Origin: Desulfomarina profundi
GTDB lineage: Bacteria > Desulfobacterota > Desulfobulbia > Desulfobulbales > Desulfocapsaceae
Assembly: GCF_019703855.1 (NCBI RefSeq)
Contig: NZ_AP024086.1
Span: forward strand, 2,438,501-2,502,500
Direction: 5' to 3'
DNA: 64,000 bases
Shown: in pieces, positions 33,818 through 63,353 of the stretch
Position numbering within the stretch: position 1 is the first letter of the stretch
How the letters are laid out: every line of letters begins with the position of its first letter
Notes under the pieces: model-generated
Database searches by the model: none
Told to the model about the DNA's origin: nothing
What the model saw: only the letters and a program-made list of their open reading frames with translations
Made by a program: the position numbers and the translations under genes

Positions 33818-34870
33818 TTATTTATCCTTTTTTTTCTTTGATTTTCGTGCGTAGAGACGATCCAGAGGGTTCTGCAGGGCTTTGATATCCTTTTTCATCA
33901 CATGGGTGTATATTTCAGTTGTCTTCACATCGGCATGGCCCAGCAGATCCTGGAGAACACGGATATTGGTACCGGTTTCCAGCATATTGGTGGCAAAGGA
34001 GTGGCGCAATGTATGGACGGTCACCCGCTTATCCAGTTTTGCCTTCCGGGCAGCTCTTTTTACCGCCTTCTGCAACCCGGACTCCAGGACATGATGCCTT
34101 CTCTCCCTGCCGCTCCGGGGGTCAATTGACCGGGAACGGGCAGGAAACACATATTGCCAGACCGTTTCCCGGGCCGCATTTTTATATTTTTTGGCAATCG
34201 CTCCGGGCAGGTACACTTCTCCGAACCCTTCGGCCAGATCCCTGCTGTGAAGCTCTTTTACGCGGTCAATATGTTCACGCAGTTCTTCACTGACGCACTG
34301 CGGAAGGTAGGTGATCCTGTCCTTTCCTCCTTTTCCGGAGCGGACATAGATATTATTATTGGCAAAATCCACATCCTGAATACGAAGCCTTATGCATTCC
34401 ATCAGCCGCATACCGGAACCGTAGATCAGTTCCGCCATCAACAGATGAGTTCCGCTCATATGGTGAAAAACTCTCTCAACCTCTTCAACTGACAGCACAG
34501 TGGGTGGATGAACTTTGCGTTTGGCCCGAATGGGGGCTATGGAATTATCAAGGGGGTCCTGCAGAACATCGCGGTAAAGAAAGACAAGGGCATTCAATGC
34601 CTGTTTCTGAGTGGAAGCTGACACCTTTTCCCTGCTTGCCAGATGCGAGAGAAAGCGCTCAACCTCCCTTGCCCCCATATCACGGGGATGCCGCTTCTTA
34701 TTATAGAAAATAATATAACGGAGAATCCATTGACAATAGGTCTTTTCTGTTGACAGTGCGTAATGATAATATCGCATGGTTTCACGCACTTGGTCAAGCA
34801 GCTTCAATTTTCTGTTTGGGACGAATTTTCTCTTGCTTTCCATGTTAGGCATGATAATATCAGTTATCAT
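33818..34870 (-). CDS. intI: Integron integrase (IntI-type tyrosine recombinase)
   Basis: 350-aa tyrosine recombinase. Catalytic set: R in GSGMRLMECIRLRIQDVD, HTLRHSFATNML, LLGHADVKTTEIYTHV (H and Tyr). The IntI-specific insertion that distinguishes integron integrases from XerC/D is present (about 210-255: VYLPGAIAKKYKNAARETVW, QYVFPARS, DPRSGRERRHHV). It cuts attI and folded attC bottom strands to capture cassettes. It points away from the array, the classic layout. The start is uncertain: Met codons at 34870, 34852 and 34843 are all possible, without a clear ribosome site. Confidence 0.93.
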   Translation of the reverse strand: MITDIIMPNMESKRKFVPNRKLKLLDQVRETMRYYHYALSTEKTYCQWILRYIIFYNKKRHPRDMGAREVERFLSHLASREKVSASTQKQALNALVFLYRDVLQDPLDNSIAPIRAKRKVHPPTVLSVEEVERVFHHMSGTHLLMAELIYGSGMRLMECIRLRIQDVDFANNNIYVRSGKGGKDRITYLPQCVSEELREHIDRVKELHSRDLAEGFGEVYLPGAIAKKYKNAARETVWQYVFPARSRSIDPRSGRERRHHVLESGLQKAVKRAARKAKLDKRVTVHTLRHSFATNMLETGTNIRVLQDLLGHADVKTTEIYTHVMKKDIKALQNPLDRLYARKSKKKKDK

Positions 34871-34871: not shown

Positions 34872-35004
34872 GAAAATTTAAAGTAAAATGCTATGCATGG
34901 ACATTTTTTTCCAGTTTTACCCTCTTGATATGAGTTTAGGTGGAAAACTGGTCCAGATATAGGGTAATATGATGTCTGGTGTCCATGTATTAATACTGTT
35001 AGTG
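34871..35004. other. attI region and junction with cassette 1
   Basis: Noncoding interval between intI and the first cassette. The junction is ACTGTTAGTG with GTT at 34998-35000. GTTAGTG is complementary to the R'' box CACTAAC of attC1, which fixes the cassette boundary. The interval should also hold the intI promoter and possibly a cassette promoter; I could not place one with confidence. Confidence 0.7.
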
Positions 35005-35818: not shown

Positions 35819-35942
35819 CACTAACAAATCAATTAACCTGACCCGCAACTCGTCGGCGAATTTTCGTGTAAATTCAACATAATAGCCGTTAACAAAGTTA
35901 ATCGGTAGCTGCACGGCGGGCAGGTTATCTCAAACGTTCAAG
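35819..35942. other. attC1
   Basis: R'' CACTAAC (35819-35825) matches the cassette start GTTAGTG. L'' CCTGACCCGC and L' GCGGGCAGG form the inner arms; R' is GTTCAAG at 35936, whose last four bases belong to the inserted IS. A typical ~120-bp attC, closely similar to attC3. Confidence 0.88.
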
Positions 35943-37786
35943 CTGTAGAAAAAGTCAACAAAACAAATTAACTACTGAATAATACGTGTAAAAATGTTAT
36001 ACTGCTGTCGCAAATTGATCGAAATACCCCTTACCTTCGATAAATGGAGCTGCAATGGCACGGTATAAACCTTATTCCTATGCTCAGGGCAAGTTCATTC
36101 CCATCCATTTTGCAAATCAGATCCTTCCCGGCACATTTGAATATACGCTGAATTATCTCATTGATCATGAACTTGATCTTTCCATCTTTAATGATCGCTA
36201 TCACAATGATGATTCCGGTGCCCCGGCCTATGATCCGAAGATTCTGCTTAAAATCATTCTCTTTGCCTATTCCAGAGGGATTGTGAGCAGCCGTAAAATA
36301 GAGAGAGCCTGTCGTGAGAATGTAATCTTTATGGCACTGTCTGCCGACAGTCGTCCCCATTTCACCACAATTGCAGATTTTATTTCCAGCATGGACAAGG
36401 AAATAGTCTCACTGTTTCTTGAAGTACTTCTGGTTTGCGATGAACAGAAATTGATCGGCAGAGAGATGTTTGCCATTGACGGCTGCAAAATGCCCAGCAA
36501 CGCCTCTGTTACCTGGAGCGGAACCAGGGCTGATTTTCAGAAAAAAGTAACGAAGATGGAAACAGCTATAGCAAATATGGTCAACCACCATCATATGAAT
36601 GACCAGGAAAAGAGTGATGAAAATATCAAAGAGAAAAAAGAAAAATATGTAAAATCCCTGCGTAAAAATATAAAGAAGGTACGGAAATGGCTGGATAATA
36701 ATGATGATCGGAGAGGAAAAGGCAAAAGACCTGTCAAATCCAATATTACCGACAATGAATCCGCCAAGATGAAGACCTCAAAAGGTGTTATCCAGGGCTA
36801 TAACGGTGTTACCGCCGTGGACAGTAAAACCCAGGTGATAGTAGCCGCCGAAGCCTATGGTCAAGGCAGTGAGCAGGACCTGCTGGAACCGATGATAGAC
36901 AAAATCAGCGAAAATTTACAGGAAACCGGAAAAGACAACGATGTCTTTAAAGATGCAAAACTCCTGGCAGACAGCGGATACCATGCAAATAAAAATATGG
37001 AGATGCTGGCAGAAAAAGAGATAGACGCGTATGTAGCCGATAACCAGTTCAGAAAACGGGATCCCAGGTTCAAAGATTACGGCAGATATAAGGATCGAAC
37101 AAGAAAAGAACGGGCCAAACGAGAAGGCAGAAAGAACCTCTTTGTACCTGCTGATTTTACCTTTCCCGAAGATCTGAGTTACTGTATCTGTCCTGCCGGG
37201 AAACGGCTCTATAGAAGTGGTGGGAATATCTTTACCAAAGGCCATCATTCTGTCCGGTTCCAGGCACCCCAATCCGCCTGTGTTCCCTGCAAACTGAGGT
37301 CAAAATGTCTTCGCTATCCTGATCGCACCAAAACACGTCAGGTTGCCTATTTTACTGGGCGCATGGATAAAAAGAAGAAAACCAGTTGTGCAGAAAAGAT
37401 GAAGCGAAAAATAGATTCAGCCGCTGGCAGGGCCATCTATTCCATGCGATTGGCAATAGGAGAACCACCTTTTGCCCATATCAGATCAACAATCGGTCTG
37501 AACAGGTTCACCCTGAGATCGAAAAAGAAGGTGAATATCCAGTGGAACCTTTTCTGCATTATCCATAACCTTAAAAAGGTGCATGCATATGGAATGGGTT
37601 TTGTGTAGATTGCTGGAAAATGGTTAGGAAAAGCTGGAAATTGGTGAGATAAATTGCTTTATTGAGGATGTTAGAGAAAAAAGTAATTTTACATCAGGAT
37701 ATTTTTTGAATTGTTTTGAAATTTGAATTTTTTTGAAAAGATATGTGGGAAAATTGCAGTTGCCTGGGCTGTTTTTCTACATGCTC
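35939..37786 (+). mobile_element. IS1182-family element, copy 1
   Basis: 1,848 bp, flanked by GTT on both sides (35936-35938 and 37787-37789). Ends carry inverted repeats AGC(A)TGTAGAAAAA. It sits in the crossover triplet of attC1. Nucleotide sequence matches copy 4 wherever I compared. Confidence 0.88.
36055..37608 (+). CDS. IS1182-family transposase, copy 1
   Basis: 517-aa DDE transposase. An N-terminal DUF772-type domain (YDPKILLKIILFAYSRGI, SSRKIERACREN), the catalytic core (MFAIDGCKMPSNASVTWSG; LLADSGYH; the late Glu region) and the cysteine-rich segment ACVPCKLRSKCLRYP are typical of IS1182. GGAG is 7 bases before the ATG. Protein identical to copy 4; a few substitutions separate it from copies 2 and 3 (for example SLRKN against SLCKN). 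It appears intact. Confidence 0.9.
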   Translation: MARYKPYSYAQGKFIPIHFANQILPGTFEYTLNYLIDHELDLSIFNDRYHNDDSGAPAYDPKILLKIILFAYSRGIVSSRKIERACRENVIFMALSADSRPHFTTIADFISSMDKEIVSLFLEVLLVCDEQKLIGREMFAIDGCKMPSNASVTWSGTRADFQKKVTKMETAIANMVNHHHMNDQEKSDENIKEKKEKYVKSLRKNIKKVRKWLDNNDDRRGKGKRPVKSNITDNESAKMKTSKGVIQGYNGVTAVDSKTQVIVAAEAYGQGSEQDLLEPMIDKISENLQETGKDNDVFKDAKLLADSGYHANKNMEMLAEKEIDAYVADNQFRKRDPRFKDYGRYKDRTRKERAKREGRKNLFVPADFTFPEDLSYCICPAGKRLYRSGGNIFTKGHHSVRFQAPQSACVPCKLRSKCLRYPDRTKTRQVAYFTGRMDKKKKTSCAEKMKRKIDSAAGRAIYSMRLAIGEPPFAHIRSTIGLNRFTLRSKKKVNIQWNLFCIIHNLKKVHAYGMGFV

Positions 37787-37789
37787 GTT

Positions 37790-39637
37790 CAAGCTGTAGA
37801 AAAAGTCAACAAAACAAATTAACTACTGAATAATACATGTAAAAATGTTATACTGCTGTCGCAAATTGATCGAAATACCCCTTACCTTCGATAAATGGAG
37901 CTGCAATGGCACGGTATAAACCTTATTCCTATGCTCAGGGCAAGTTCATTCCCATCCATTTTGCAAATCAGATTCTTCCCGGCACATTTGAATATACGCT
38001 GAATTATCTCATTGATCATGAACTTGATCTATCCATCTTTAACGATCGCTATCACAATGATGATTCCGGTGCCCCGGCCTATGATCCGAAGATTCTGCTT
38101 AAAATCATTCTCTTTGCCTATTCCAGAGGGATTGTGAGCAGCCGTAAAATAGAGAGAGCCTGTCGTGAGAATGTAATCTTTATGGCACTGTCTGCCGACA
38201 GCCGTCCCCATTTCACCACAATTGCAGATTTTATTTCCAGCATGGACAAGGAAATAGTCTCACTGTTTCTTGAAGTACTTCTGGTTTGCGATGAACAGAA
38301 ATTGATCGGCAGAGAGATGTTTGCCATTGACGGCTGCAAAATGCCCAGTAATGCCTCTGTTACCTGGAGCGGAACCAGGGCTGATTTTCAGAAAAAAGTA
38401 ACGAAGATGGAAACAGCTATAGCAAATATGGTCAACCACCATCATATGAATGACCAGGAAAAGAGTGATGAAAATATCAAAGAGAAAAAAGAAAAATATG
38501 TAAAATCCCTGTGTAAAAATATAAAGAAGGTACGGAAATGGCTGGATAATAATGATGATCGGAGAGGAAAAGGCAAAAGACCTGTCAAATCCAATATTAC
38601 CGACAATGAGTCCGCCAAGATGAAGACCTCAAAAGGTGTTATCCAGGGTTATAACGGAGTCACCGCCGTGGACAGCAAAACCCAGGTGATAGTAGCCGCC
38701 GAAGCCTATGGTCAAGGCAGTGAGCAGGACCTGCTTGAACCGATGATAGACAAAATCAGCGAAAATTTACAGGAAACCGGAAAAGACGACGATGTCTTTA
38801 AAGATGCAAAACTCCTTGCAGACAGCGGATACCATACAAACAAAAATATGGAGATGCTGGCGGAAAAACAAATAGACGCGTATGTAGCCGATAACCAGTT
38901 CAGAAAACGGGATCCCAGGTTCAAAGATTACGGTAGATATAAGGATCGAACAAGAAAAGAACGGGCCAAACGAGAAGGCAGAAAGAACCTCTTTGTACCT
39001 GCTGATTTTACCTTTCCCAAAGATCTGAGTTACTGCATCTGTCCTGCCGGGAAACGGCTCTATAGAAGTGGTGGTAATATATTTACAAAAGGACATCATT
39101 CTGTCCGGTTCCAGGCACCCCAATCCGCCTGTGTTCCCTGCAAACTGAGATCAAAATGTCTTCGTTATCCCGATCGCACCAAAACACGCCAGGTTGCCTA
39201 TTTTACCGGGCGCATGGATAAAAAGAAGAAAACCAGTTGCGCAGAGAAGATGAAAAGAAAAATAGACTCAGCCGCTGGCAGGGCCATCTATTCCATGCGA
39301 TTGGCAATAGGAGAACCACCTTTTGCCCATATCAGATCAACAATCGGTCTGAACAGATTTACCCTGAGATCGAAAAAGAAGGTGAATATCCAGTGGAACC
39401 TTTTCTGCATTATCCATAACCTTAAAAAGGTGCATGCATATGGAATGGGTTTTGTGTAGATTGCTGGAAAATGGTTAGGAAAAGCTGGAAATTGGTGAGA
39501 TAAATTGCTTTATTGAGGATGTTAGAGAAAAAAGTAATTTTACATCAGGATATTTTTTGAATTGTTTTGAAATTTGAATTTTTTTGAAAAGATATGTGGG
39601 AAAATTGCAGTTGCCTGGGCTGTTTTTCTACATGCTC
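37790..39637 (+). mobile_element. IS1182-family element, copy 2
   Basis: 1,848 bp directly after copy 1, sharing the GTT at 37787-37789 and ending at GTT 39638-39640. Same orientation and ends as copy 1. Confidence 0.88.
37906..39459 (+). CDS. IS1182-family transposase, copy 2
   Basis: 517 aa, same architecture as copy 1 with scattered substitutions (DDDVF, HTNKN, QIDAY, PKDLS). Differs from copy 3 at one residue near the C-terminus (RSKKK here, RSRKK there). Intact frame and ribosome site, so it could supply active transposase. The near-identity to copy 3 suggests a recent tandem insertion or duplication. Confidence 0.9.
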   Translation: MARYKPYSYAQGKFIPIHFANQILPGTFEYTLNYLIDHELDLSIFNDRYHNDDSGAPAYDPKILLKIILFAYSRGIVSSRKIERACRENVIFMALSADSRPHFTTIADFISSMDKEIVSLFLEVLLVCDEQKLIGREMFAIDGCKMPSNASVTWSGTRADFQKKVTKMETAIANMVNHHHMNDQEKSDENIKEKKEKYVKSLCKNIKKVRKWLDNNDDRRGKGKRPVKSNITDNESAKMKTSKGVIQGYNGVTAVDSKTQVIVAAEAYGQGSEQDLLEPMIDKISENLQETGKDDDVFKDAKLLADSGYHTNKNMEMLAEKQIDAYVADNQFRKRDPRFKDYGRYKDRTRKERAKREGRKNLFVPADFTFPKDLSYCICPAGKRLYRSGGNIFTKGHHSVRFQAPQSACVPCKLRSKCLRYPDRTKTRQVAYFTGRMDKKKKTSCAEKMKRKIDSAAGRAIYSMRLAIGEPPFAHIRSTIGLNRFTLRSKKKVNIQWNLFCIIHNLKKVHAYGMGFV

Positions 39638-39640
39638 GTT

Positions 39641-41467
39641 CAAGCTGTAGAAAAAGTCAACAAAACAAATTAACTACTGAATAATACATGTAAAAATGTT
39701 ATACTGCTGTCGCAAATTGATCGAAATACCCCTTACCTTCGATAAATGGAGCTGCAATGGCACGGTATAAACCTTATTCCTATGCTCAGGGCAAGTTCAT
39801 TCCCATCCATTTTGCAAATCAGATTCTTCCCGGCACATTTGAATATACGCTGAATTATCTCATTGATCATGAACTTGATCTATCCATCTTTAACGATCGC
39901 TATCACAATGATGATTCCGGTGCCCCGGCCTATGATCCGAAGATTCTGCTTAAAATCATTCTCTTTGCCTATTCCAGAGGGATTGTGAGCAGCCGTAAAA
40001 TAGAGAGAGCCTGTCGTGAGAATGTAATCTTTATGGCACTGTCTGCCGACAGCCGTCCCCATTTCACCACAATTGCAGATTTTATTTCCAGCATGGACAA
40101 GGAAATAGTCTCACTGTTTCTTGAAGTACTTCTGGTTTGCGATGAACAGAAATTGATCGGCAGAGAGATGTTTGCCATTGACGGCTGCAAAATGCCCAGT
40201 AATGCCTCTGTTACCTGGAGCGGAACCAGGGCTGATTTTCAGAAAAAAGTAACGAAGATGGAAACAGCTATAGCAAATATGGTCAACCACCATCATATGA
40301 ATGACCAGGAAAAGAGTGATGAAAATATCAAAGAGAAAAAAGAAAAATATGTAAAATCCCTGTGTAAAAATATAAAGAAGGTACGGAAATGGCTGGATAA
40401 TAATGATGATCGGAGAGGAAAAGGCAAAAGACCTGTCAAATCCAATATTACCGACAATGAGTCCGCCAAGATGAAGACCTCAAAAGGTGTTATCCAGGGT
40501 TATAACGGAGTCACCGCCGTGGACAGCAAAACCCAGGTGATAGTAGCCGCCGAAGCCTATGGTCAAGGCAGTGAGCAGGACCTGCTTGAACCGATGATAG
40601 ACAAAATCAGCGAAAATTTACAGGAAACCGGAAAAGACGACGATGTCTTTAAAGATGCAAAACTCCTTGCAGACAGCGGATACCATACAAACAAAAATAT
40701 GGAGATGCTGGCGGAAAAACAAATAGACGCGTATGTAGCCGATAACCAGTTCAGAAAACGGGATCCCAGGTTCAAAGATTACGGTAGATATAAGGATCGA
40801 ACAAGAAAAGAACGGGCCAAACGAGAAGGCAGAAAGAACCTCTTTGTACCTGCTGATTTTACCTTTCCCAAAGATCTGAGTTACTGCATCTGTCCTGCCG
40901 GGAAACGGCTCTATAGAAGTGGTGGTAATATATTTACAAAAGGACATCATTCTGTCCGGTTCCAGGCACCCCAATCCGCCTGTGTTCCCTGCAAACTGAG
41001 ATCAAAATGTCTTCGTTATCCCGATCGCACCAAAACACGCCAGGTTGCCTATTTTACCGGGCGCATGGATAAAAAGAAGAAAACCAGTTGCGCAGAGAAG
41101 ATGAAAAGAAAAATAGACTCAGCCGCTGGCAGGGCCATCTATTCCATGCGATTGGCAATAGGAGAACCACCTTTTGCCCATATCAGATCAACAATCGGTC
41201 TGAACAGATTTACCCTGAGATCCCGAAAAAAGGTGAATATCCAGTGGAACCTTTTCTGCATTATCCATAACCTTAAAAAGGTTCATGCATATGGAATGGG
41301 TTTTGTGTAGATTACTGGAAAATGGTGAGATAAATTGCTTTACTGAGGATGTTAGAGAAAAAAGTAATTTTACATCATGATATTTTTTGAATTGTTTTGA
41401 AATTTGAATTTTTTTGAAAAGATATGTGGGAAAATTGCAGTTGCCTGGGCTGTTTTTCTACATGCTC
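39641..41467 (+). mobile_element. IS1182-family element, copy 3
   Basis: Third tandem copy, 1,827 bp: a 21-bp deletion lies in the 3' noncoding part (after 41310). Ends at GTT 41468-41470, which is the first triplet of cassette 2. Confidence 0.88.
39757..41310 (+). CDS. IS1182-family transposase, copy 3
   Basis: 517 aa, intact, nearly identical to copy 2; the difference is Lys to Arg at RSRKK with local silent changes. The conserved end IHNLKKVHAYGMGFV is retained. The downstream 21-bp deletion does not touch the gene or the right-end repeat. Confidence 0.9.
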   Translation: MARYKPYSYAQGKFIPIHFANQILPGTFEYTLNYLIDHELDLSIFNDRYHNDDSGAPAYDPKILLKIILFAYSRGIVSSRKIERACRENVIFMALSADSRPHFTTIADFISSMDKEIVSLFLEVLLVCDEQKLIGREMFAIDGCKMPSNASVTWSGTRADFQKKVTKMETAIANMVNHHHMNDQEKSDENIKEKKEKYVKSLCKNIKKVRKWLDNNDDRRGKGKRPVKSNITDNESAKMKTSKGVIQGYNGVTAVDSKTQVIVAAEAYGQGSEQDLLEPMIDKISENLQETGKDDDVFKDAKLLADSGYHTNKNMEMLAEKQIDAYVADNQFRKRDPRFKDYGRYKDRTRKERAKREGRKNLFVPADFTFPKDLSYCICPAGKRLYRSGGNIFTKGHHSVRFQAPQSACVPCKLRSKCLRYPDRTKTRQVAYFTGRMDKKKKTSCAEKMKRKIDSAAGRAIYSMRLAIGEPPFAHIRSTIGLNRFTLRSRKKVNIQWNLFCIIHNLKKVHAYGMGFV

Positions 41468-41520
41468 GTTGGCAGTATCTAAATAAAAGTAAACAAAGAA
41501 TGAATGAAACAGGGGGGAAA

Positions 41521-41700
41521 ATGATATCCTGCAAAAAATGTGGCAAGGAGATTTCTGGAAACGATATCTATATCTATGAAGGTAATCAGATGTGCGATGA
41601 TTGTGCGATGAAAGCGGGTCTATTCCCTCTTGAGCATACAGGGTCACGCCGAGACAAAATTTCAGAGAGAGGAAGACATCTTACTATTCCAAAGTCTTAA
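41521..41700 (+). CDS. Cassette 2: small zinc-ribbon protein
   Basis: 59 aa with two CxxC pairs (CKKCGKEI and CDDC), a compact zinc ribbon. ATG 41521 has a strong GGGGGGA ribosome site; a longer frame runs back into the IS and is an artefact. Sole gene of the cassette bounded by GTTGGCAG (41468) and attC2. Function unknown. Confidence 0.7.
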   Translation: MISCKKCGKEISGNDIYIYEGNQMCDDCAMKAGLFPLEHTGSRRDKISERGRHLTIPKS

Positions 41701-41794
41701 GAAGTTGAATGTTTAACAACTTCAACCCATTGTCTTTAAAGTAGTATAATGATAAATGGGAAAAAATGAGAATTGATGTTTGTGTATGATCAAA

Positions 41795-41921
41795 CTGCCA
41801 ACAAATCGATTCACTGGATTGCAGGGGACTCTGCCGCTTTGAAAAATTTTGGTTTAACGAAATTATTAACATAAATAAGGTTTCTGGAAAATCCCTGCAA
41901 CCAGTGATCTTGGCGTTAGCC
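41795..41921. other. attC2
   Basis: R'' CTGCCAAC (41795-41802) is the exact complement of the cassette start GTTGGCAG at 41468, on the far side of IS copies 1-3. Inner arms TCACTGG...TTGCAGGG and TCCCTGCAACCAGTGA; R' GTTAGCC at 41915. Confidence 0.88.
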
Positions 41922-41973
41922 TTCCAAATTCCCACCGTAAACCATTCTTGAAACACTCTGTTCATCAATTTTA

Positions 41974-42037
41974 TTGACAAAATAATCTTTTCAACCTATT
42001 GTGAACATGTTCACTAAGGAATCACGTTCACAATAGG
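41974..42037 (+). promoter_or_regulatory. Promoter and operator of the TetR cassette
   Basis: -35 TTGACA (41974), 17-bp spacer, -10 TATTGT (41997). Overlapping it are 12-bp arms CCTATTGTGAAC (41995-42006) and GTTCACAATAGG (42026-42037), plus an inner GAACATGTTC. The TetR start is 8 bases on, so autorepression is likely. Confidence 0.75.
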
Positions 42038-42044
42038 CGCTTAT

Positions 42045-42647
42045 ATGACCAATAAAAAGAAAATATCCCACAGGCAGTCACAAAAAGAAGATACGAGACG
42101 ACTTATCCTTGATTCAGCATATCTCTTGTTTGCCAAAAATGGTTATGCAAAGACAACAATGCGTGCGTTAGCGGATCAGGCAGGGATAGGTCTGGGTACC
42201 ATCTTTAAACATTTCCCAGACAAGCCTTCGCTGCTTGCAGCCGCATTTCAAGATGACCTTAGTATAATAATTCAACAATCATTCAATGAGCTACCTGAGT
42301 CAGGACTGAAAAAGCAGCTTCTTCACATCACAAAGTGCCTCTACTCTTTTTATGCTGAAAAACCTAAATTATCACGAACACTTATAAAGGAAGTTCTGTT
42401 TTTAGAGGGTGAGCATGGAAAAATTCTAGACGCACAAATAGACATGTTCCTGAACGAAATTTGTGGATTGCTAAATAAAGCAAAAGAAAACGGTGAAATA
42501 AACAAAAATATAAATGTACACGATGGCGCTGTAGCGTTTTGGTCATTCTATTTTACTGTTCTTCTTATGGGACTTAAACAGCCCTCATTTGAGATTGATA
42601 TTCAACTTAATATTATCGAGAAACTCATAGAAAATTACTTTTATTAA
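42045..42647 (+). CDS. Cassette 3: TetR/AcrR-family regulator
   Basis: 200 aa. The N-terminal helix-turn-helix is canonical: RRLILDSAYLLFAKNGYAKT, then TMRALADQAGIGLGTIFKHF. The C-terminal half is a ligand-binding helical domain. It lies directly behind a promoter overlapped by an inverted repeat, and overlaps the following methyltransferase gene by the GGAGG ribosome site. It probably represses both genes until an unknown ligand appears. AT-rich codons. Confidence 0.88.
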   Translation: MTNKKKISHRQSQKEDTRRLILDSAYLLFAKNGYAKTTMRALADQAGIGLGTIFKHFPDKPSLLAAAFQDDLSIIIQQSFNELPESGLKKQLLHITKCLYSFYAEKPKLSRTLIKEVLFLEGEHGKILDAQIDMFLNEICGLLNKAKENGEINKNINVHDGAVAFWSFYFTVLLMGLKQPSFEIDIQLNIIEKLIENYFY

Positions 42648-42661
42648 TGGAGGTCAATATC

Positions 42662-43309
42662 ATGGACTATAGACAAGCAGCAAATGAAAGAAAATATGAT
42701 TTTGCGGCATCGAGTTATGATTTTATTGCATTCATTATGAGCCTTGGCCAAGCTAATAAAATATACCAAAAAATTGCTGAGAAGATCGACCAGAAAACAT
42801 CCAAAAATATTGTTGAATTAGGCTGTGGCCCGGCATCTGTTATTCCAGCAATCGTTAATGGTACAGATGATTCTACCCAAATTACAGGAATTGATTTTTC
42901 TGCAAAAATGATAGAAATAGCAAATCGCAAAAAACAGATAAATAACTGGGGGAATGTGGAATTTGAATGTTTGGATATGTATAATTTCAAATGCCCAAAA
43001 CCTGTTGATACAGTAATTTTCTGCCTTGCTTTAACAGCTATACCAGATTCAACAAGAGCCCTAGAAAAATCCCTATCTATTCTAAGTCCAGGCGGACAGC
43101 TGATAATCATCGACTCAATACCTCTTAACACTAGGTGGTGGCACCCATTTACAAATATTTATATCTATCTGAAATCATTAGTTGTTGGGGCAAAGCCTAC
43201 AAGGAAAATACTTCCGTTTATACACAGAAATATGGTAGATGTTGAAATTGAAGAAATGGCCTATGGTGTTTATACAGTCATAAATGCAAGAAAACCCAAG
43301 TCGGCGTGA
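42662..43309 (+). CDS. Cassette 3: class I SAM-dependent methyltransferase
   Basis: 215 aa. SAM motif I VELGCGPASVIPAI, motif II GIDFSAKMIEIANRK, then FCLALTAIPDS and LSPGGQLIIIDS, the usual Rossmann order. An N-terminal YDFAASSYDFIAF stretch resembles UbiE-like enzymes. ATG 42662 has GGAGGT 7 bases upstream; an earlier ATG at 42647 would place the ribosome site inside the gene. Likely a regulated modification or resistance enzyme; substrate unknown. Confidence 0.82.
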   Translation: MDYRQAANERKYDFAASSYDFIAFIMSLGQANKIYQKIAEKIDQKTSKNIVELGCGPASVIPAIVNGTDDSTQITGIDFSAKMIEIANRKKQINNWGNVEFECLDMYNFKCPKPVDTVIFCLALTAIPDSTRALEKSLSILSPGGQLIIIDSIPLNTRWWHPFTNIYIYLKSLVVGAKPTRKILPFIHRNMVDVEIEEMAYGVYTVINARKPKSA

Positions 43310-43340
43310 GTTTGTGTGCAAACAAAGCAACCTAAAAATA

Positions 43341-43463
43341 GGCTAACCAGTCAATTAACCTGACCCGCAACTCGTCGGCGAAATTTCTGTATATTCAAGT
43401 ATATAGCCGCAAATAAAGTTAATCGGTAGCTGCACGGCGGGCAGGTTATCTCAATCGTTATGT
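43341..43463. other. attC3
   Basis: R'' GGCTAAC (43341-43347) pairs with cassette start GTTAGCC (41915). Inner arms CCTGACCCGC / GCGGGCAGG as in attC1; R' GTTATGT at 43457. Confidence 0.9.
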
Positions 43464-43478
43464 CTTCAGGAGAACCAA

Positions 43479-44588
43479 ATGTCTTTAGGTAAATTTGAAG
43501 CGATTTATTATCCATATTTTGAACCTCCTGTTGATTGGTTAAAGACTTATTTACTTTTTTATGATCGTATAAAAAGTATTATCCCTGAGGGTGCAAATTA
43601 TAATTTTTCAGATAGTTTAAATAAAATATTGGATAGTTGCCCTGATTGTTTTTCCTCAATATCTCCAGGGATAAATGATATAAAAATAAATACGATTAAT
43701 TTTGATATATTAGAACAAACTTTCAATTACATATCCTCTCAGAACAAACATAACAACGAAAGAACGATAGTACTTGATAAACAAGGAAGCATATCAATAA
43801 GTGGTTTTTCATTCCTTCACCAGGATAAAGTAAGTGAGAATGTAAGAATATTATTAAGAAAATACAATTTAGTTGATAAAGATGGTTCTAATATATTGTC
43901 AGATATCCAAAATGGACAATACATCATTGTTAATGAAAATGCTTGTGATCTAATTGTATCCAATGTCGCATCAAATTTATCAAAAAAATATGGCCTACCA
44001 TCGCTCACAGATAAATTATTGTTTAATTCCTTTAATAATATTTCTGAGTTATCAACTTATTCTGGTTCAGGATCATCCAATATGTTGGCATCATCTGTAA
44101 TTAATCTATTGGTTCCAGATAACATATCTTTGCTAAGCGAAAAAGATTATTTAGAACTAAAACAAGCCTTTAATGATTTAAAAGTACCATTTCATAGGCT
44201 TATAAAAGAGCAATTTAATCTTTACAGCTTAAATGATATTCATGATGAAAATGAACTAAAAGAAAAGGTTAAGAGTATATCAATAGAATTCAGCAAAGAA
44301 TATTCAAAGTTTCGACAAACAAGATGGATTAAAAAATTTAAAAAATGGGGGCCTATTGGTATTGGTAGCCTATTTACTCTGGCAGGTGCTACATTCTCAA
44401 ATCCTATAATTGCAATTTCTAGTGCAGCAACATCCATCACAATACAAATAATTTCTGAATCCAAATTGTTAAAGTCACCACAAAATAATAAAAGTGAGGT
44501 TTATAGTTTACTTGCTTCACTTGAAGATAAAATTCTGTATAAAACGATATCAAATGAGTTATTAATTGAAAATGAAATCTGGACATAA
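43479..44588 (+). CDS. Cassette 4: uncharacterised 369-aa protein
   Basis: Opening MSLGKFEAIYYPYFEPPVDW and the length recall the DUF6236 group found in integrons, but I cannot confirm it. Mostly helical and Asn/Ser/Ile rich, with one hydrophobic segment (about 290-325, GPIGIGSLFTLAGATFSNPI) that could insert in a membrane. AGGAG precedes the ATG. The stop codon lies within the R'' box of attC4, a typical compact cassette. Function unknown. Confidence 0.7.
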   Translation: MSLGKFEAIYYPYFEPPVDWLKTYLLFYDRIKSIIPEGANYNFSDSLNKILDSCPDCFSSISPGINDIKINTINFDILEQTFNYISSQNKHNNERTIVLDKQGSISISGFSFLHQDKVSENVRILLRKYNLVDKDGSNILSDIQNGQYIIVNENACDLIVSNVASNLSKKYGLPSLTDKLLFNSFNNISELSTYSGSGSSNMLASSVINLLVPDNISLLSEKDYLELKQAFNDLKVPFHRLIKEQFNLYSLNDIHDENELKEKVKSISIEFSKEYSKFRQTRWIKKFKKWGPIGIGSLFTLAGATFSNPIIAISSAATSITIQIISESKLLKSPQNNKSEVYSLLASLEDKILYKTISNELLIENEIWT

Positions 44589-44714
44589 CAATGGTATTCA
44601 CCTGACCACAAGCACGACCCGGTTTTGGCAAATGTCCCAGTAAATCGTAGCGTTATATCCGTGTCAAAGCTGGTCGGTAAATCTGCTTGTGTCAGGTGAT
44701 ACCGGTCGTTCAAG
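44582..44714. other. attC4
   Basis: R'' GACATAAC (44582-44589) exactly complements GTTATGTC at 43457. Inner arms CACCTGACCACAAGC / GCTTGTGTCAGGTG; the crossover GTT at 44708-44710 is followed directly by IS copy 4. Confidence 0.9.
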
Positions 44715-46558
44715 CTGTAGAAAAAGTCAACAAAACAAATTAACTACTGAATAATACGTGTAAAAATGTTATACTGCTGTCGCAAATTGATCGAAATACC
44801 CCTTACCTTCGATAAATGGAGCTGCAATGGCACGGTATAAACCTTATTCCTATGCTCAGGGCAAGTTCATTCCCATCCATTTTGCAAATCAGATCCTTCC
44901 CGGCACATTTGAATATACGCTGAATTATCTCATTGATCATGAACTTGATCTTTCCATCTTTAATGATCGCTATCACAATGATGATTCCGGTGCCCCGGCC
45001 TATGATCCGAAGATTCTGCTTAAAATCATTCTCTTTGCCTATTCCAGAGGGATTGTGAGCAGCCGTAAAATAGAGAGAGCCTGTCGTGAGAATGTAATCT
45101 TTATGGCACTGTCTGCCGACAGTCGTCCCCATTTCACCACAATTGCAGATTTTATTTCCAGCATGGACAAGGAAATAGTCTCACTGTTTCTTGAAGTACT
45201 TCTGGTTTGCGATGAACAGAAATTGATCGGCAGAGAGATGTTTGCCATTGACGGCTGCAAAATGCCCAGCAACGCCTCTGTTACCTGGAGCGGAACCAGG
45301 GCTGATTTTCAGAAAAAAGTAACGAAGATGGAAACAGCTATAGCAAATATGGTCAACCACCATCATATGAATGACCAGGAAAAGAGTGATGAAAATATCA
45401 AAGAGAAAAAAGAAAAATATGTAAAATCCCTGCGTAAAAATATAAAGAAGGTACGGAAATGGCTGGATAATAATGATGATCGGAGAGGAAAAGGCAAAAG
45501 ACCTGTCAAATCCAATATTACCGACAATGAATCCGCCAAGATGAAGACCTCAAAAGGTGTTATCCAGGGCTATAACGGTGTTACCGCCGTGGACAGTAAA
45601 ACCCAGGTGATAGTAGCCGCCGAAGCCTATGGTCAAGGCAGTGAGCAGGACCTGCTGGAACCGATGATAGACAAAATCAGCGAAAATTTACAGGAAACCG
45701 GAAAAGACAACGATGTCTTTAAAGATGCAAAACTCCTGGCAGACAGCGGATACCATGCAAATAAAAATATGGAGATGCTGGCAGAAAAAGAGATAGACGC
45801 GTATGTAGCCGATAACCAGTTCAGAAAACGGGATCCCAGGTTCAAAGATTACGGCAGATATAAGGATCGAACAAGAAAAGAACGGGCCAAACGAGAAGGC
45901 AGAAAGAACCTCTTTGTACCTGCTGATTTTACCTTTCCCGAAGATCTGAGTTACTGTATCTGTCCTGCCGGGAAACGGCTCTATAGAAGTGGTGGGAATA
46001 TCTTTACCAAAGGCCATCATTCTGTCCGGTTCCAGGCACCCCAATCCGCCTGTGTTCCCTGCAAACTGAGGTCAAAATGTCTTCGCTATCCTGATCGCAC
46101 CAAAACACGTCAGGTTGCCTATTTTACTGGGCGCATGGATAAAAAGAAGAAAACCAGTTGTGCAGAAAAGATGAAGCGAAAAATAGATTCAGCCGCTGGC
46201 AGGGCCATCTATTCCATGCGATTGGCAATAGGAGAACCACCTTTTGCCCATATCAGATCAACAATCGGTCTGAACAGGTTCACCCTGAGATCGAAAAAGA
46301 AGGTGAATATCCAGTGGAACCTTTTCTGCATTATCCATAACCTTAAAAAGGTGCATGCATATGGAATGGGTTTTGTGTAGATTGCTGGAAAATGGTTAGG
46401 AAAAGCTGGAAATTGGTGAGATAAATTGCTTTATTGAGGATGTTAGAGAAAAAAGTAATTTTACATCAGGATATTTTTTGAATTGTTTTGAAATTTGAAT
46501 TTTTTTGAAAAGATATGTGGGAAAATTGCAGTTGCCTGGGCTGTTTTTCTACATGCTC
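44711..46558 (+). mobile_element. IS1182-family element, copy 4
   Basis: 1,848 bp between GTT 44708-44710 and GTT 46559-46561; the right GTT opens cassette 5 (GTTGGAC). Same orientation as copies 1-3 and the same sequence as copy 1. Confidence 0.9.
44827..46380 (+). CDS. IS1182-family transposase, copy 4
   Basis: 517 aa, identical protein to copy 1 although 8.8 kb away and inserted in a different attC. This shows a recent move of that version rather than slow divergence. Domains as in copy 1; intact. Confidence 0.9.
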   Translation: MARYKPYSYAQGKFIPIHFANQILPGTFEYTLNYLIDHELDLSIFNDRYHNDDSGAPAYDPKILLKIILFAYSRGIVSSRKIERACRENVIFMALSADSRPHFTTIADFISSMDKEIVSLFLEVLLVCDEQKLIGREMFAIDGCKMPSNASVTWSGTRADFQKKVTKMETAIANMVNHHHMNDQEKSDENIKEKKEKYVKSLRKNIKKVRKWLDNNDDRRGKGKRPVKSNITDNESAKMKTSKGVIQGYNGVTAVDSKTQVIVAAEAYGQGSEQDLLEPMIDKISENLQETGKDNDVFKDAKLLADSGYHANKNMEMLAEKEIDAYVADNQFRKRDPRFKDYGRYKDRTRKERAKREGRKNLFVPADFTFPEDLSYCICPAGKRLYRSGGNIFTKGHHSVRFQAPQSACVPCKLRSKCLRYPDRTKTRQVAYFTGRMDKKKKTSCAEKMKRKIDSAAGRAIYSMRLAIGEPPFAHIRSTIGLNRFTLRSKKKVNIQWNLFCIIHNLKKVHAYGMGFV

Positions 46559-46720
46559 GTTGGACTAAGCTGTGCAAACTAACTATTTGTAATTATTCAA
46601 CTTGTACAATAGATCCTTAACTGTTAGACTGTTGTCGGCAGGCGAATTTATAAAGGTTAATTGACCGCCATATTATGAAAAGTATGAGGTGGTCGGTCAG
46701 AGAAACAGAAGGTTCACTTT

Positions 46721-47657
46721 ATGCAACTTGTCGCTCAAGACTCAACTGCACCCTTTCCAGGACTTTTCACTTCATCCTCTTCCTCTGCAACATTCCCGGG
46801 CGAAGTTATAAGCCCACCCGCGAACCGACTCATTGATTTGGTATCAAAGTATTATCCGGTAGTCGAACACATTTACTGCTGCCCAAACAGGCACAGCAGG
46901 CAGCTTTTATCATGGCAATATGCCACACTTCCGACCTTGGAGGGCATGTGGAACAGTGTCCGAGTGGTCATGTCGAGCGCATTTATTATAACTCTTGCGG
47001 TCATCGATTTTGTCCGCGTTGTGCGGCCAGAATACGACACAAGTGGTTGCTCGCCCGTGAAGCAAAACTGCTCCCGGTGCGTCATTATCACACTATTTTC
47101 ACCCTGGCCCACACATTCAATGCCTTGTGGTATTACAATCATCGAACGATGGGCGACCTTTTGTTCCATAGCGGGGTTAATGCACTCAAGGCGTTGCTTG
47201 CCGATCCCCGGTGGCTGGGAGCCGAAGTGGGAATCACGGCTACACTTGAGACCTGGGACGACCGAATGCTCTTTCATCCCCATCTGCACTGCATGGTGAC
47301 CGGCGGGGGGCTGACAGCGGAAGGGGACTGGATAGATGTAGCAAATCCAAACTGCCTGATTGCCGTAAAACCCTTAATGTATGAATTTCGCAAACGGTTT
47401 TGTCAGAGATTGAAACAGCTGTTAAAGGATGACAAGTTGACCCTTCCCGGAGAGACAACCAAACGCCAATGGCTTTCCCGGCTCAATAAAATAAACAGGA
47501 GGAACTGGACTGTATTCATCGCGAAGCAGCCTGAAAATGGTGGACCAACAGCGATTGATATCCTGCGTTATCTGTCTGAGGATGTCGCGGGTGGTCCACT
47601 GTCCAGTGACCGGCTTGTTCCGCAATCATCTGAATTCTCCGCGACTCAGTTAGCATA
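46721..47657 (+). pseudogene. IS91-like transposase, 5' part
   Basis: Replicative (Y2/HUH-type) transposase of the IS91 group. A zinc-binding domain C-x4-H-x8-CGHRFCPRC (residues of the frame from 46912) is followed by LPVRHYHTIFTLAHTFNALW and the HUH motif HPHLHCMVTGGG. The extreme N-terminus (from 46721) lies in another frame; one more T at 46872-46874 would join them. The gene is cut at 47657 by an IS66 element and resumes at 53461. Not functional as it stands. Confidence 0.8.
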
Positions 47658-47676
47658 TCTTAATTGTAAGCGCTCA

Positions 47677-49278
47677 TCAGACCCCACTCGGGACATCCGG
47701 TATCACAAGATCCTTTCCAGACAAATACATCGGAAGGAGGTTTTTGTAGTCTGCGGTGGTTTTAGCAAAGGGTAATTTCTCAAGGAGAAAGCGGAGGTAC
47801 GCGTACGGTTCCAAACCGTTGGCCTTGGCTGTTTCTATCAAGCTGTAAAGTCCAGCGCTCGCCATTGCCCCTTCCACTGTACCAGCAAAGAGCCAGTTCT
47901 TCCTGCCAACCACAAATGGCCGGATGGCATTCTCAGCCAGGTTGTTGTCCGGTGTCATCTGCGGATGGTCGATAAAGACTTTTAACCTCTCCCACTGCCC
48001 CAATGTATATTTTACCGCCTTACCAAGAAGACTTTTAGGCGTCACGTGGATGGCTTTTTTGCCGAGCCATTTGTAAAAATTGTCCAGAACCTTTTTTGTC
48101 TTCTCCTGTCTCATAGCGAGCAGTTCTGAGCTGGAGAGATTTTGTTTGGCTGCCTCACGTTCCAACCTGTAAATTTTTGAGATAAAGCCGAGAGCCACGT
48201 CAACACTTCCAGCCTTTTTCTGCTTTTGTGCGCCCTTCTGGGCGTCGGTGAACTTACGTCGGGCATGTGCCCAACAGGCGGCATGCACGATTTTCGACTC
48301 AGTATCCAGGAAATCATACCCCTTGTAGCCGTCGGATTGCACCACACCGCGATAGCCTCGCAAGAGATCACGAGCCACATCAGAAGATCTGTTTGGGGCG
48401 TAATGGTAGAGCAATCCCGGTCGTACGGGCGCACCTCCCCGACAAACCCACATGTACGACTTGGTTGTTGGAGAGCGACCGGGTTCCTTCAGCACCTGGA
48501 CCGTGGTCTCGTCGATATTGATCAAGGGACCGGAACGAATTTCCTGCTGCAACAGCTCGATCAGCGGTTGGCAGCGGTCGGCGATTTTCATTGCCCAGTG
48601 ACACATCGAGGCCCGTGGAATCTCTGCACCAATTCTTTTGAACTGGGCCTCCTGGCGGTAAAACGGCAACGCATCACAGAATTTTGCGGTGAGGATGTAG
48701 GCGATGAGGCCCGCAGTGGCGATGCCTTTATCGATAATCTGTTTCGGTGGAGGTGCTATCTTGACCACAGCTCCTTCCGTCTCCACACCTTCGCAGGACC
48801 TGCAGGCATACTTTGGTCGAACATGTCGGATTACCCTGATAACGGCTGGGATGATATCCAGTTTTTCAGAAACCTCTTCACCTATGCGATGCAGAGCTGC
48901 GCCACAGTCGCAGACTTTGTCTTCTTCGGGGATGTCGTGGAGAACCTCAACCCTGGGCAGGTCCACCGGCAACTTTTTGCGGCCCGGCTTCTTGCGAGAA
49001 TGAACCTTGACCTCAATCTCTTCCGAATCTTCCTTGTCTGCGCCGTCAATATCCGGCTCAGGCATGTCGAAGAGAGGAAGCTGTACCGCACCATTATCCG
49101 AGGTGCGCTTTTCGCTCTTCTTACCGTACATCTGGGCCCGAAGCAGACGCAACTGTTCATGAAGAAGATTGATCTCCTTCTCGTAGCTCCGTCTGGTTTC
49201 AAGCAAGATCTGCTTGAGTTGTTCCGGGTCGTTCGGTAAGTTTTTCTCCTTGGATATCATGCTGAAAACATAGCACAA
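47677..49278 (-). CDS. tnpC: IS66 transposase TnpC
   Basis: 533-aa IS66 DDE transposase: an N-terminal coiled coil, a zinc-finger region (CDCGAALHRIGEE; YACRSCEG), the catalytic core (LINIDETTVQVLKEPGR, VVQSDGYKGYDFL, HAACWAHARRKF) and the late NNLAENAIRPFVVGRKNWLF containing the catalytic Glu. The gene ends 11 bases inside the element's left repeat. It appears complete. Confidence 0.93.
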   Translation of the reverse strand: MCYVFSMISKEKNLPNDPEQLKQILLETRRSYEKEINLLHEQLRLLRAQMYGKKSEKRTSDNGAVQLPLFDMPEPDIDGADKEDSEEIEVKVHSRKKPGRKKLPVDLPRVEVLHDIPEEDKVCDCGAALHRIGEEVSEKLDIIPAVIRVIRHVRPKYACRSCEGVETEGAVVKIAPPPKQIIDKGIATAGLIAYILTAKFCDALPFYRQEAQFKRIGAEIPRASMCHWAMKIADRCQPLIELLQQEIRSGPLINIDETTVQVLKEPGRSPTTKSYMWVCRGGAPVRPGLLYHYAPNRSSDVARDLLRGYRGVVQSDGYKGYDFLDTESKIVHAACWAHARRKFTDAQKGAQKQKKAGSVDVALGFISKIYRLEREAAKQNLSSSELLAMRQEKTKKVLDNFYKWLGKKAIHVTPKSLLGKAVKYTLGQWERLKVFIDHPQMTPDNNLAENAIRPFVVGRKNWLFAGTVEGAMASAGLYSLIETAKANGLEPYAYLRFLLEKLPFAKTTADYKNLLPMYLSGKDLVIPDVPSGV

Positions 49279-61509: not shown

Positions 61510-62670
61510 TTGACAAAAGATATTCTGTATCTTAATATGAATCAAAAAGATACGGAAATAATTATGACCAAACCTTTCATACCCCCTGAATTACCACTCC
61601 AGAATGTTGCTTGGGAAGACCTGCTGCCAAGCATTATAAAAGCAAATACATCTTTGGCAAATTTCAACGGACTTCTTAAAACCATACGAAATCCTATAAT
61701 ATTTTTGAGTCCTCTCATGACACAAGAGGCTGTCTTGTCGTCCCGTATTGAGGGTACACAGGCATCTTTCAGCGACATACTTGAATACGAAGCTGCTCCT
61801 AAAAGAATCAAAAATAATTATAACGACATAGAAGAAGTCATAAATTATCGGGAGGCATTAAAATATGCAGAGTTTGAGCTCGCCAAACGCCCTATCTGCT
61901 TAAATCTTATCAGAGAAATTCATGCCATATTACTCAAAGGCGTTAGGGGTGCAAGCAAATCCCGTGGAGAATTCAGAAAAATCCAAAATTGGATTGGCCC
62001 ACCAGGGTCTACAATTAAAACTGCTTCATTTGTTCCACCATCACCTGAAAATTTGCTTATCCACCTGTCAAATTGGGAGAAATATTGCCACTACGACGAA
62101 AAAGACAGGCTTGTTCAGTTAGCAATCATTCACGCACAATTTGAAATTATCCATCCGTTTTTGGATGGCAATGGCAGGGTTGGCAGAATTCTAATCCCTT
62201 TGTTTTTGAAAGAGAAAGAACTTCTTAAATATCCATCATTGTATATTAGTGAATTTTTTGAGAAAAATAGAAAAGAATATTATCGCAAATTGCGGAGTAT
62301 CACAGAGAAAGGAGATTGGAACAATTGGATTAAATATTTCCTTTTGGGGATAATTGCTCAAGCTGAAACCAATACAAAACGGGCAAAGCTGGTAGCAAAT
62401 TTATACGAAGAACTTAAGTATACAATTCAGCAGGTTACAAAATCAAGGGCTTCAATCCAGATTCAGGATTTTCTTTTTTCAAAAATCATGTTTCAAACAC
62501 CTGATTTCACAAAAGAGTCAGGCTTATCCAAGCCGCACGCTGCAAGAATTCTCAAAAATCTTATGGAGCATGATATTGTAAAAATAATCTCTCCAGCAAA
62601 AGGAAGAAGGCCTGCTATTTATGGCTTTAGTGGGCTCATGGAAATAATAGAAAGCGAACAAGCCAATTAA
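61510..62670 (+). CDS. Cassette 8: Fic-domain protein with winged helix
   Basis: Fic-fold enzyme, family activity AMPylation of target proteins. The active motif HPFLDGNGRVGR is complete (about 218-229). An N-terminal inhibitory helix SSRIEGT ([ST]xxxE[GN]) marks a class II, self-inhibited Fic. A C-terminal winged-helix (ESGLSKPHAARILKNLMEHD) suggests DNA or partner binding. 386 aa from TTG 61510; ATG 61537 and 61564 are possible starts. The stop falls within the attC8 box. Possible regulatory or toxin-like role. Confidence 0.85.
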   Translation: MTKDILYLNMNQKDTEIIMTKPFIPPELPLQNVAWEDLLPSIIKANTSLANFNGLLKTIRNPIIFLSPLMTQEAVLSSRIEGTQASFSDILEYEAAPKRIKNNYNDIEEVINYREALKYAEFELAKRPICLNLIREIHAILLKGVRGASKSRGEFRKIQNWIGPPGSTIKTASFVPPSPENLLIHLSNWEKYCHYDEKDRLVQLAIIHAQFEIIHPFLDGNGRVGRILIPLFLKEKELLKYPSLYISEFFEKNRKEYYRKLRSITEKGDWNNWIKYFLLGIIAQAETNTKRAKLVANLYEELKYTIQQVTKSRASIQIQDFLFSKIMFQTPDFTKESGLSKPHAARILKNLMEHDIVKIISPAKGRRPAIYGFSGLMEIIESEQAN

Positions 62671-62790
62671 CCTGACCGCAGGTCTTCGACGAATTTTCGT
62701 GTATATTCAACTAAACGACCGCCGTCTGAAAGTGAAACGTCTGAAAGACGGTGGCTTTAACCACGGGCCTAACCCGCAGTTCTCATGAAC
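62652..62790. other. attC8, degraded
   Basis: R'' AAGCGAAC (62652-62659) exactly complements GTTCGCTT at 61463. CAATTAACCTGACC and ATTTTCGTGTA follow as in attC1, but the L'/R' half is replaced by unrelated sequence with a CCGTCT/AGACGG hairpin. Confidence 0.7.
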
Positions 62791-63005: not shown

Positions 63006-63013
63006 GGTTTAGG

Positions 63014-63353
63014 CATTGGTGAACCACCATTTGCCCATATCCGCTCCATAATCGGCCTGGACAGATTTACCCTGAGATCCAAAAAAAAGATAAACATCCA
63101 ATGGAACCTGTTCTGTATAATCCATAACCTGAAAAAGGTGCATGCATATGGAACAGGTTTCGTGTAAATTGTCAGGATATGAAGGCAGTGGATATAAACA
63201 GGAGAGCAATGGACAACCAGACTGCTTTTTGATGTTATTTTTGAGAAATAATTACCAGATTATCTGAGATAATTTGCTTGAAAACGGTATTGAAATTTTT
63301 GGAAATTCAACCTGTGAAAATTACTGTATTATTGGTGGTTTTTCTACAGGCTC
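63014..63353 (+). mobile_element. IS1182-type element, 3' remnant
   Basis: Encodes the transposase end IGEPPFAHIRSIIGLDRFTL, then NLKKVHAYGTGFV with stop at 63165-63167, homologous to copies 1-4 but diverged. It ends GGTTTTTCTACAGGCTC before GTT 63354-63356. The 5' four fifths are missing. Confidence 0.85.

Follow-up and report, generated by a model that had tools for sequence, protein, structure and literature searches.

An IS1182-type insertion sequence clade located at the GTT of integron attC sites

A 64,000-nucleotide stretch of the Desulfomarina profundi genome (contig NZ_AP024086.1, positions 2,438,501 to 2,502,500; hereafter the window, at its full length) carries an integron, made up of the integrase gene intI followed by cassettes divided by the recombination sites attC1, attC2, attC3 and attC4. 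Four copies of this insertion sequence (IS) are present in the window, three head to tail behind attC1 and one behind attC4. The element is 1848 bp long, has 15-bp terminal inverted repeats and is bounded by GTT on each side. We conclude, with a probability of about 0.9, that it is a mobile insertion sequence with a DDE transposase and that it belongs to a distinct IS1182-type clade that inserts 3′ of the GTT in the attC R′ box.

The element and its junctions

The 517-aa protein encoded by the element contains DUF772 (PF05598) and DDE transposase (PF13751, PF01609) domains. Its best NCBIfam model is IS1182 (NF033551), with 264.2 bits against a cut-off of 270 that is exceeded by homologues elsewhere (G183 and G087). 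In a tree of 54 transposases, built by a quick method with long branches flagged, the attC elements grouped together (SH-aLRT 100), and a long branch set them apart from 20 other IS1182 proteins. An earlier note on this DNA had called the transposase IS1182-type, a reading that is supported, with the qualification that score and tree put it in a clade that diverges from the named IS1182 members and lies next to them.

The ends of most homologues approximate GAGnCTGTAGAAAAA and the inverse of that sequence, and the bordering bases are ...CGTT (left) and GTT... (right); left flanks finish in CGTT in 46 of 52 cases and right flanks begin with GTT in 62 of 64. The window copies, which start at 35939, 37790, 39641 and 44711 and all lie on the + strand, are each followed by GTT, confirming what had first been observed, and copies 2 and 3 each lie behind their predecessor's right end (...CTC/GTT). 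Copy 1 (35939..37786, transposase 36055-37608) and copy 4 (44711..46558, 1848 bp, transposase 44827-46380), which are identical, occupy the same position of attC1 (35819..35938, + strand, from the R″ box CACTAAC to GTT) and attC4 (44583..44710, + strand, from R″ ACATAAC to GTT). This shared position had been recognized in the earlier note, but the junction lies directly 3′ of the attC GTT and not inside G/TT, as was proposed there. Variant targets bear on the length of the target duplication, previously given as 3–4 bp: homologue L061 has GGTT on the left and CTC/GTT on the right, L021 has TGTT and CTC/GTT, and L077 has TTT at both flanks. The duplication is therefore 3 bp (GTT), and the C of the right-hand CTCGTT is the final inverted-repeat base of the element; a 4-bp CGTT duplication is ruled out by L061 and L021.

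attC sites at the junctions across genomes

Genome contigs, plasmids and samples covering the same order, class and phylum supplied the homologues. After duplicates, tandem copies and a branch with TGC targets (see below) were dropped, 50 left junctions were kept, eight of them from the D. profundi genome. Each was scored for attC structure (AAC, next a stem close to both ends and last the triplet, with a threshold of at least 10); the controls were 1161 CGTT sites from other parts of these loci, in which real attCs are present. The threshold was reached by 47 of the 50 left junctions, compared with 21% of the controls (area under the curve 0.92, p = 4e-24); attC1 and attC4 scored 17.2 and 24.0. 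In some 30 further genomes homologues likewise occur at attC, their targets being unrelated in sequence, and the related records include Desulfurivibrio, Desulfobulbaceae and Deltaproteobacteria; no relatives were found among viral contigs. The earlier note had named a preponderance of homologues outside integrons as the outcome that would speak against attC targeting; nearly all lie at attC. No tandem junction scored as attC. We considered the element as an integron gene cassette and rejected this, since it has no attC of its own and its right ends are inverted repeats that finish in CTC and abut GTT.

Two further tests do not rest on the attC score alone. The unpaired extra base of the hairpin lies on the 5′ arm at 36 junctions and on the 3′ arm at 6 (p = 3e-6), which is the normal attC polarity and therefore places the element at R′ rather than R″. 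In addition, 25 of 54 loci carry, downstream of the element, an R″ that exactly complements the 7-mer beginning with the right-hand GTT; the 7-mers of other junctions gave an expectation of 3.8. The element therefore sits on a cassette boundary. The left end, upstream of the transposase gene, faces attC in nearly all elements. Among the sampled genomes, intI was present in 19 of 24 with the element and in 116 of 219 without it (p = 0.011). The target at one left junction (L104) is a nearly perfect palindrome of ∼100 nt whose base is formed by AAC and GTT, possibly an attC variant or a non-attC hairpin.

Several observations weigh against this reading. Transposition into attC is deduced from junction sequences, and no transposition event was seen. 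Three of the 50 left junctions (L060, L078 and L087) score below 10 and can be taken as truncated or decayed attCs by eye only. The CGTT controls come from integron-rich loci, so that the score alone is not a clean measure. One element, on a Catenovulum adriaticum plasmid (L117), is inverted, its right end facing the attC hairpin with the same GTT junctions; orientation is thus a strong bias and not an absolute rule, and part of the bias could stem from selection for co-transcription with the cassettes. Five of the 24 sampled element-bearing genomes show no intI, although many assemblies are incomplete. Finally, TGC and not attC is the target in a small inner branch (L098, L101 and L106, the last placed there by its flanks). 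These three elements have ...CTTGC at the left and (T)TGCC at the right; the exact position of L098 and L101 in the tree is unsure, and one loss of attC targeting cannot be told apart from two gains.

Copies and targets in Desulfomarina profundi

The array begins with intI (33818..34870, − strand), which encodes a 350-aa integrase (TIGR02249, 432.9 bits; Pfam Phage_integrase). Cassette 1 opens with the R′ box GTTAGTG (34998..35004, +), complementary to the R″ of attC1, whose extrahelical base is on the 5′ arm. Behind copy 1, the separating GTT (37787..37789, +) is followed by copy 2 (37790..39637, +) and then by copy 3 (39641..41467, +), which has a 21-bp deletion relative to copy 1 and is 1827 bp long. 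Directly after copy 3 comes the R′ of cassette 2, GTTGGCA (41468..41474, +), which complements the R″ TGCCAAC of attC2 and is restored through the GTT duplication; right of copy 4 an R′-like 7-mer, GTTGGAC (46559..46565, +), is restored. The remaining sites, attC2 (41796..41917, +) and attC3 (43341..43459, +, ∼90% identical to attC1), are empty. Cassette 3 (42045-43309) holds two genes, for a TetR-type regulator and a UbiE-like methyltransferase, and an IS91-family transposase gene (46912-47775) lies at the array end, directly past the last attC and copy 4. Near the far end of the window an attC1-like half-site (62655-62720) is followed ∼300 bp further on by a remnant of a related transposase (63012-63171, ∼84% identical DNA), and together these probably represent another old, decayed insertion near an attC.

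Outside the window, the D. profundi genome contains further copies and left-end fragments. Three copies (L009, L010 and L011) match window copies 1 and 4 at every base (0/1848 differences), and these three as well as L012, L014 and L017 have an attC hairpin ending in CGTT on their left. Eight left ends in this genome are at attC; the fragment L013 lies instead behind the right end of another element. The seven distinct attCs used by the identical element have in common only CGTT and a few bases of the L′ box, with a mean identity of 35% over the 26 nt preceding CGTT, and a long sequence match or guide-RNA pairing is therefore unlikely.

The order of the stacked copies is informative. In the window, copy 1, the stacked copy nearest attC, is identical to the other recent copies, and copies 2 and 3 differ from it by 40 and 48 substitutions; at L009 an identical copy is proximal to attC and an old left-end remnant is distal. 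Because the hairpin and GTT stay on the left, re-insertion at attC itself predicts this order, with the newest copy proximal, whereas the opposite order would be predicted if new copies entered the right end of older ones. These cases, the only two that are informative, suggest that the target is regenerated and that later copies re-enter the same attC, displacing older ones outward. As to empty sites, which the earlier note had proposed to seek, attC3 is uninterrupted through the GTT equivalent to the one occupied in attC1, and similar attCs elsewhere (G110, G218, G019, G020 and G101) are likewise uninterrupted there. Uninterrupted sibling attCs were thus found, but searches with two joined empty sites did not find an identical empty cassette pair.

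Target choice, precedents and consequences

The most likely explanation for these junctions is that the transposase itself picks the site. Holding both element ends, it would recognize attC on the R′ side and make staggered cuts flanking GTT; the ends would then be joined and repair would duplicate GTT. The attC arms and GTT would be left intact on the left side, which would regenerate the target. We infer that attC is recognized through the polarity of its hairpin together with CGTT and not through a long sequence. Only tentatively, and as a possibility that we rate somewhat below even, do we propose that a DDE transposase independently evolved recognition of the folded attC, with IntI-like polarity and no RNA guide, and that the element forms stacks and travels as a cassette passenger.

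Alternatively, the element might prefer a short duplex motif, CGTT with T.A at the L′ box, that attC happens to carry, in which case folding would be irrelevant. The 46 of 52 left flanks ending in CGTT fit such a preference, as does the presence of T.A at −14/−12 in six of the seven sites used by the same element. However, T.A-N7-CGTT occurs 32 times in the window, a number near chance, and is therefore not sufficient alone, yet the direct insertions are at attC; moreover, most CGTT control sites are without attC structure. That the transposase chooses attC but reads it as a duplex is a real possibility, though less likely than not; that attC is incidental to a duplex motif we consider unlikely.

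A quite different possibility is that insertion is the work of the integrase, which would recombine an excised IS circle, bearing GTT at its end-to-end junction, with attC as a secondary site to give attC-GTT-IS-GTT. Such a route would account for a junction at the IntI crossover triplet, for the IntI-like polarity, for the higher frequency of intI in element-bearing genomes given above and for the near-constant orientation. We nevertheless regard it as very improbable: recombination of a GTT circle would leave GTT at the right of L077, where TTT is found on both sides, the element has a typical pair of 15-bp inverted repeats and a DDE transposase, and related IS1182 elements generate their own duplications at CTAG. 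That the element inserts widely and only harmless copies at non-coding cassette boundaries persist is hardly credible, because ∼50 independent cases of base-exact junctions, all behind one triplet and on one side of attC, are not what selection would yield, and other IS1182 elements from the same bacterial class lie at CTAG and other non-attC sites.

Site choice by the transposase of the present element can be set beside known systems. Group IIC-attC introns are mobile elements that insert at attC, but they consist of a ribozyme and a reverse transcriptase, whereas the present element encodes a transposase, and no Rfam match, a group II ribozyme included, was found within 30000-60000 of the window. 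attC targeting is also established for the IS1111-type elements ISKpn4 and ISPst6, which have a DEDD transposase and seekRNA-guided target choice (PMC11187229). The IS1111-attC group likewise comprises insertion sequences that target one end of cassette attC sites, but its transposase is DEDD; in the present element the enzyme is of the DDE type, terminal inverted repeats are present and the duplication is 3 bp long. The window transposase had no match to DEDD (IS110/IS1111-type) families; only DDE families match. Judging from the target sequences, a guide like the seekRNA, which derives from a long non-coding region, appears unlikely for the present element, because identical copies have targets with little in common except CGTT.

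Within the IS1182 family, which is reported to be heterogeneous in its targets, IS1272 takes the place of stem-loops that are unrelated in sequence and produces no duplication, and Siguier et al. are cited for palindrome targeting in the family (PMC5678879). IS1272 thus belongs, by the literature, to the same broad family and shares the choice of stem-loops; however, it replaces the hairpin, which insertions of the present clade leave in place, the element lying next to it with GTT duplicated. Outside the clade, elements with clear ends lie at CTAG (L118-L121, L125, ISAzo1 and ISKpn6) or at other non-attC sites. These CTAG-type elements likewise have a DUF772/DDE transposase and inverted repeats with a similar start, GAGnnTG, but they form a deep separate branch and are flanked by CTAG rather than by GTT at attC. 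The two arms of a terminator-like inverted repeat flank ISPpu20 (L149, pWW53), an ordinary IS1182 element, which is a further hint of a hairpin preference in the family. Such a preference may be old in the IS1182 family and attC specialization newer. We found no report of attC targeting by a DDE, IS1182-type enzyme in the open-access literature, only incidental co-mentions, with ISfinder and subscription papers unchecked.

What insertion means for the cassettes follows from the junctions. GTT and the first four bases of the IS read GTTRRRY in 34 of 52 cases, so the interrupted upstream attC may still be usable, although this match may be coincidental, since the GAG start is common to non-attC relatives. 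By its position, the IS makes up the 5′ portion of the cassette that follows, and IntI-driven excision could carry it along; no IS-cassette junction was seen repeated behind different attCs. Placed at the edge of attC, the element would colonize integrons without necessarily destroying them. Beside IS1111, to which it is unrelated, it would be a second IS lineage whose insertions find attC to the exact base, in the cassette arrays of environmental bacteria and on replicons of Pseudoalteromonas and Catenovulum. Its occurrence would account for the recurrent transposases at cassette boundaries, and its ends offer a new end-marker for attC annotation. As a simple one-gene system, it would also allow tests of structure-guided target choice by a DDE transposase, as earlier proposed for IS1272.
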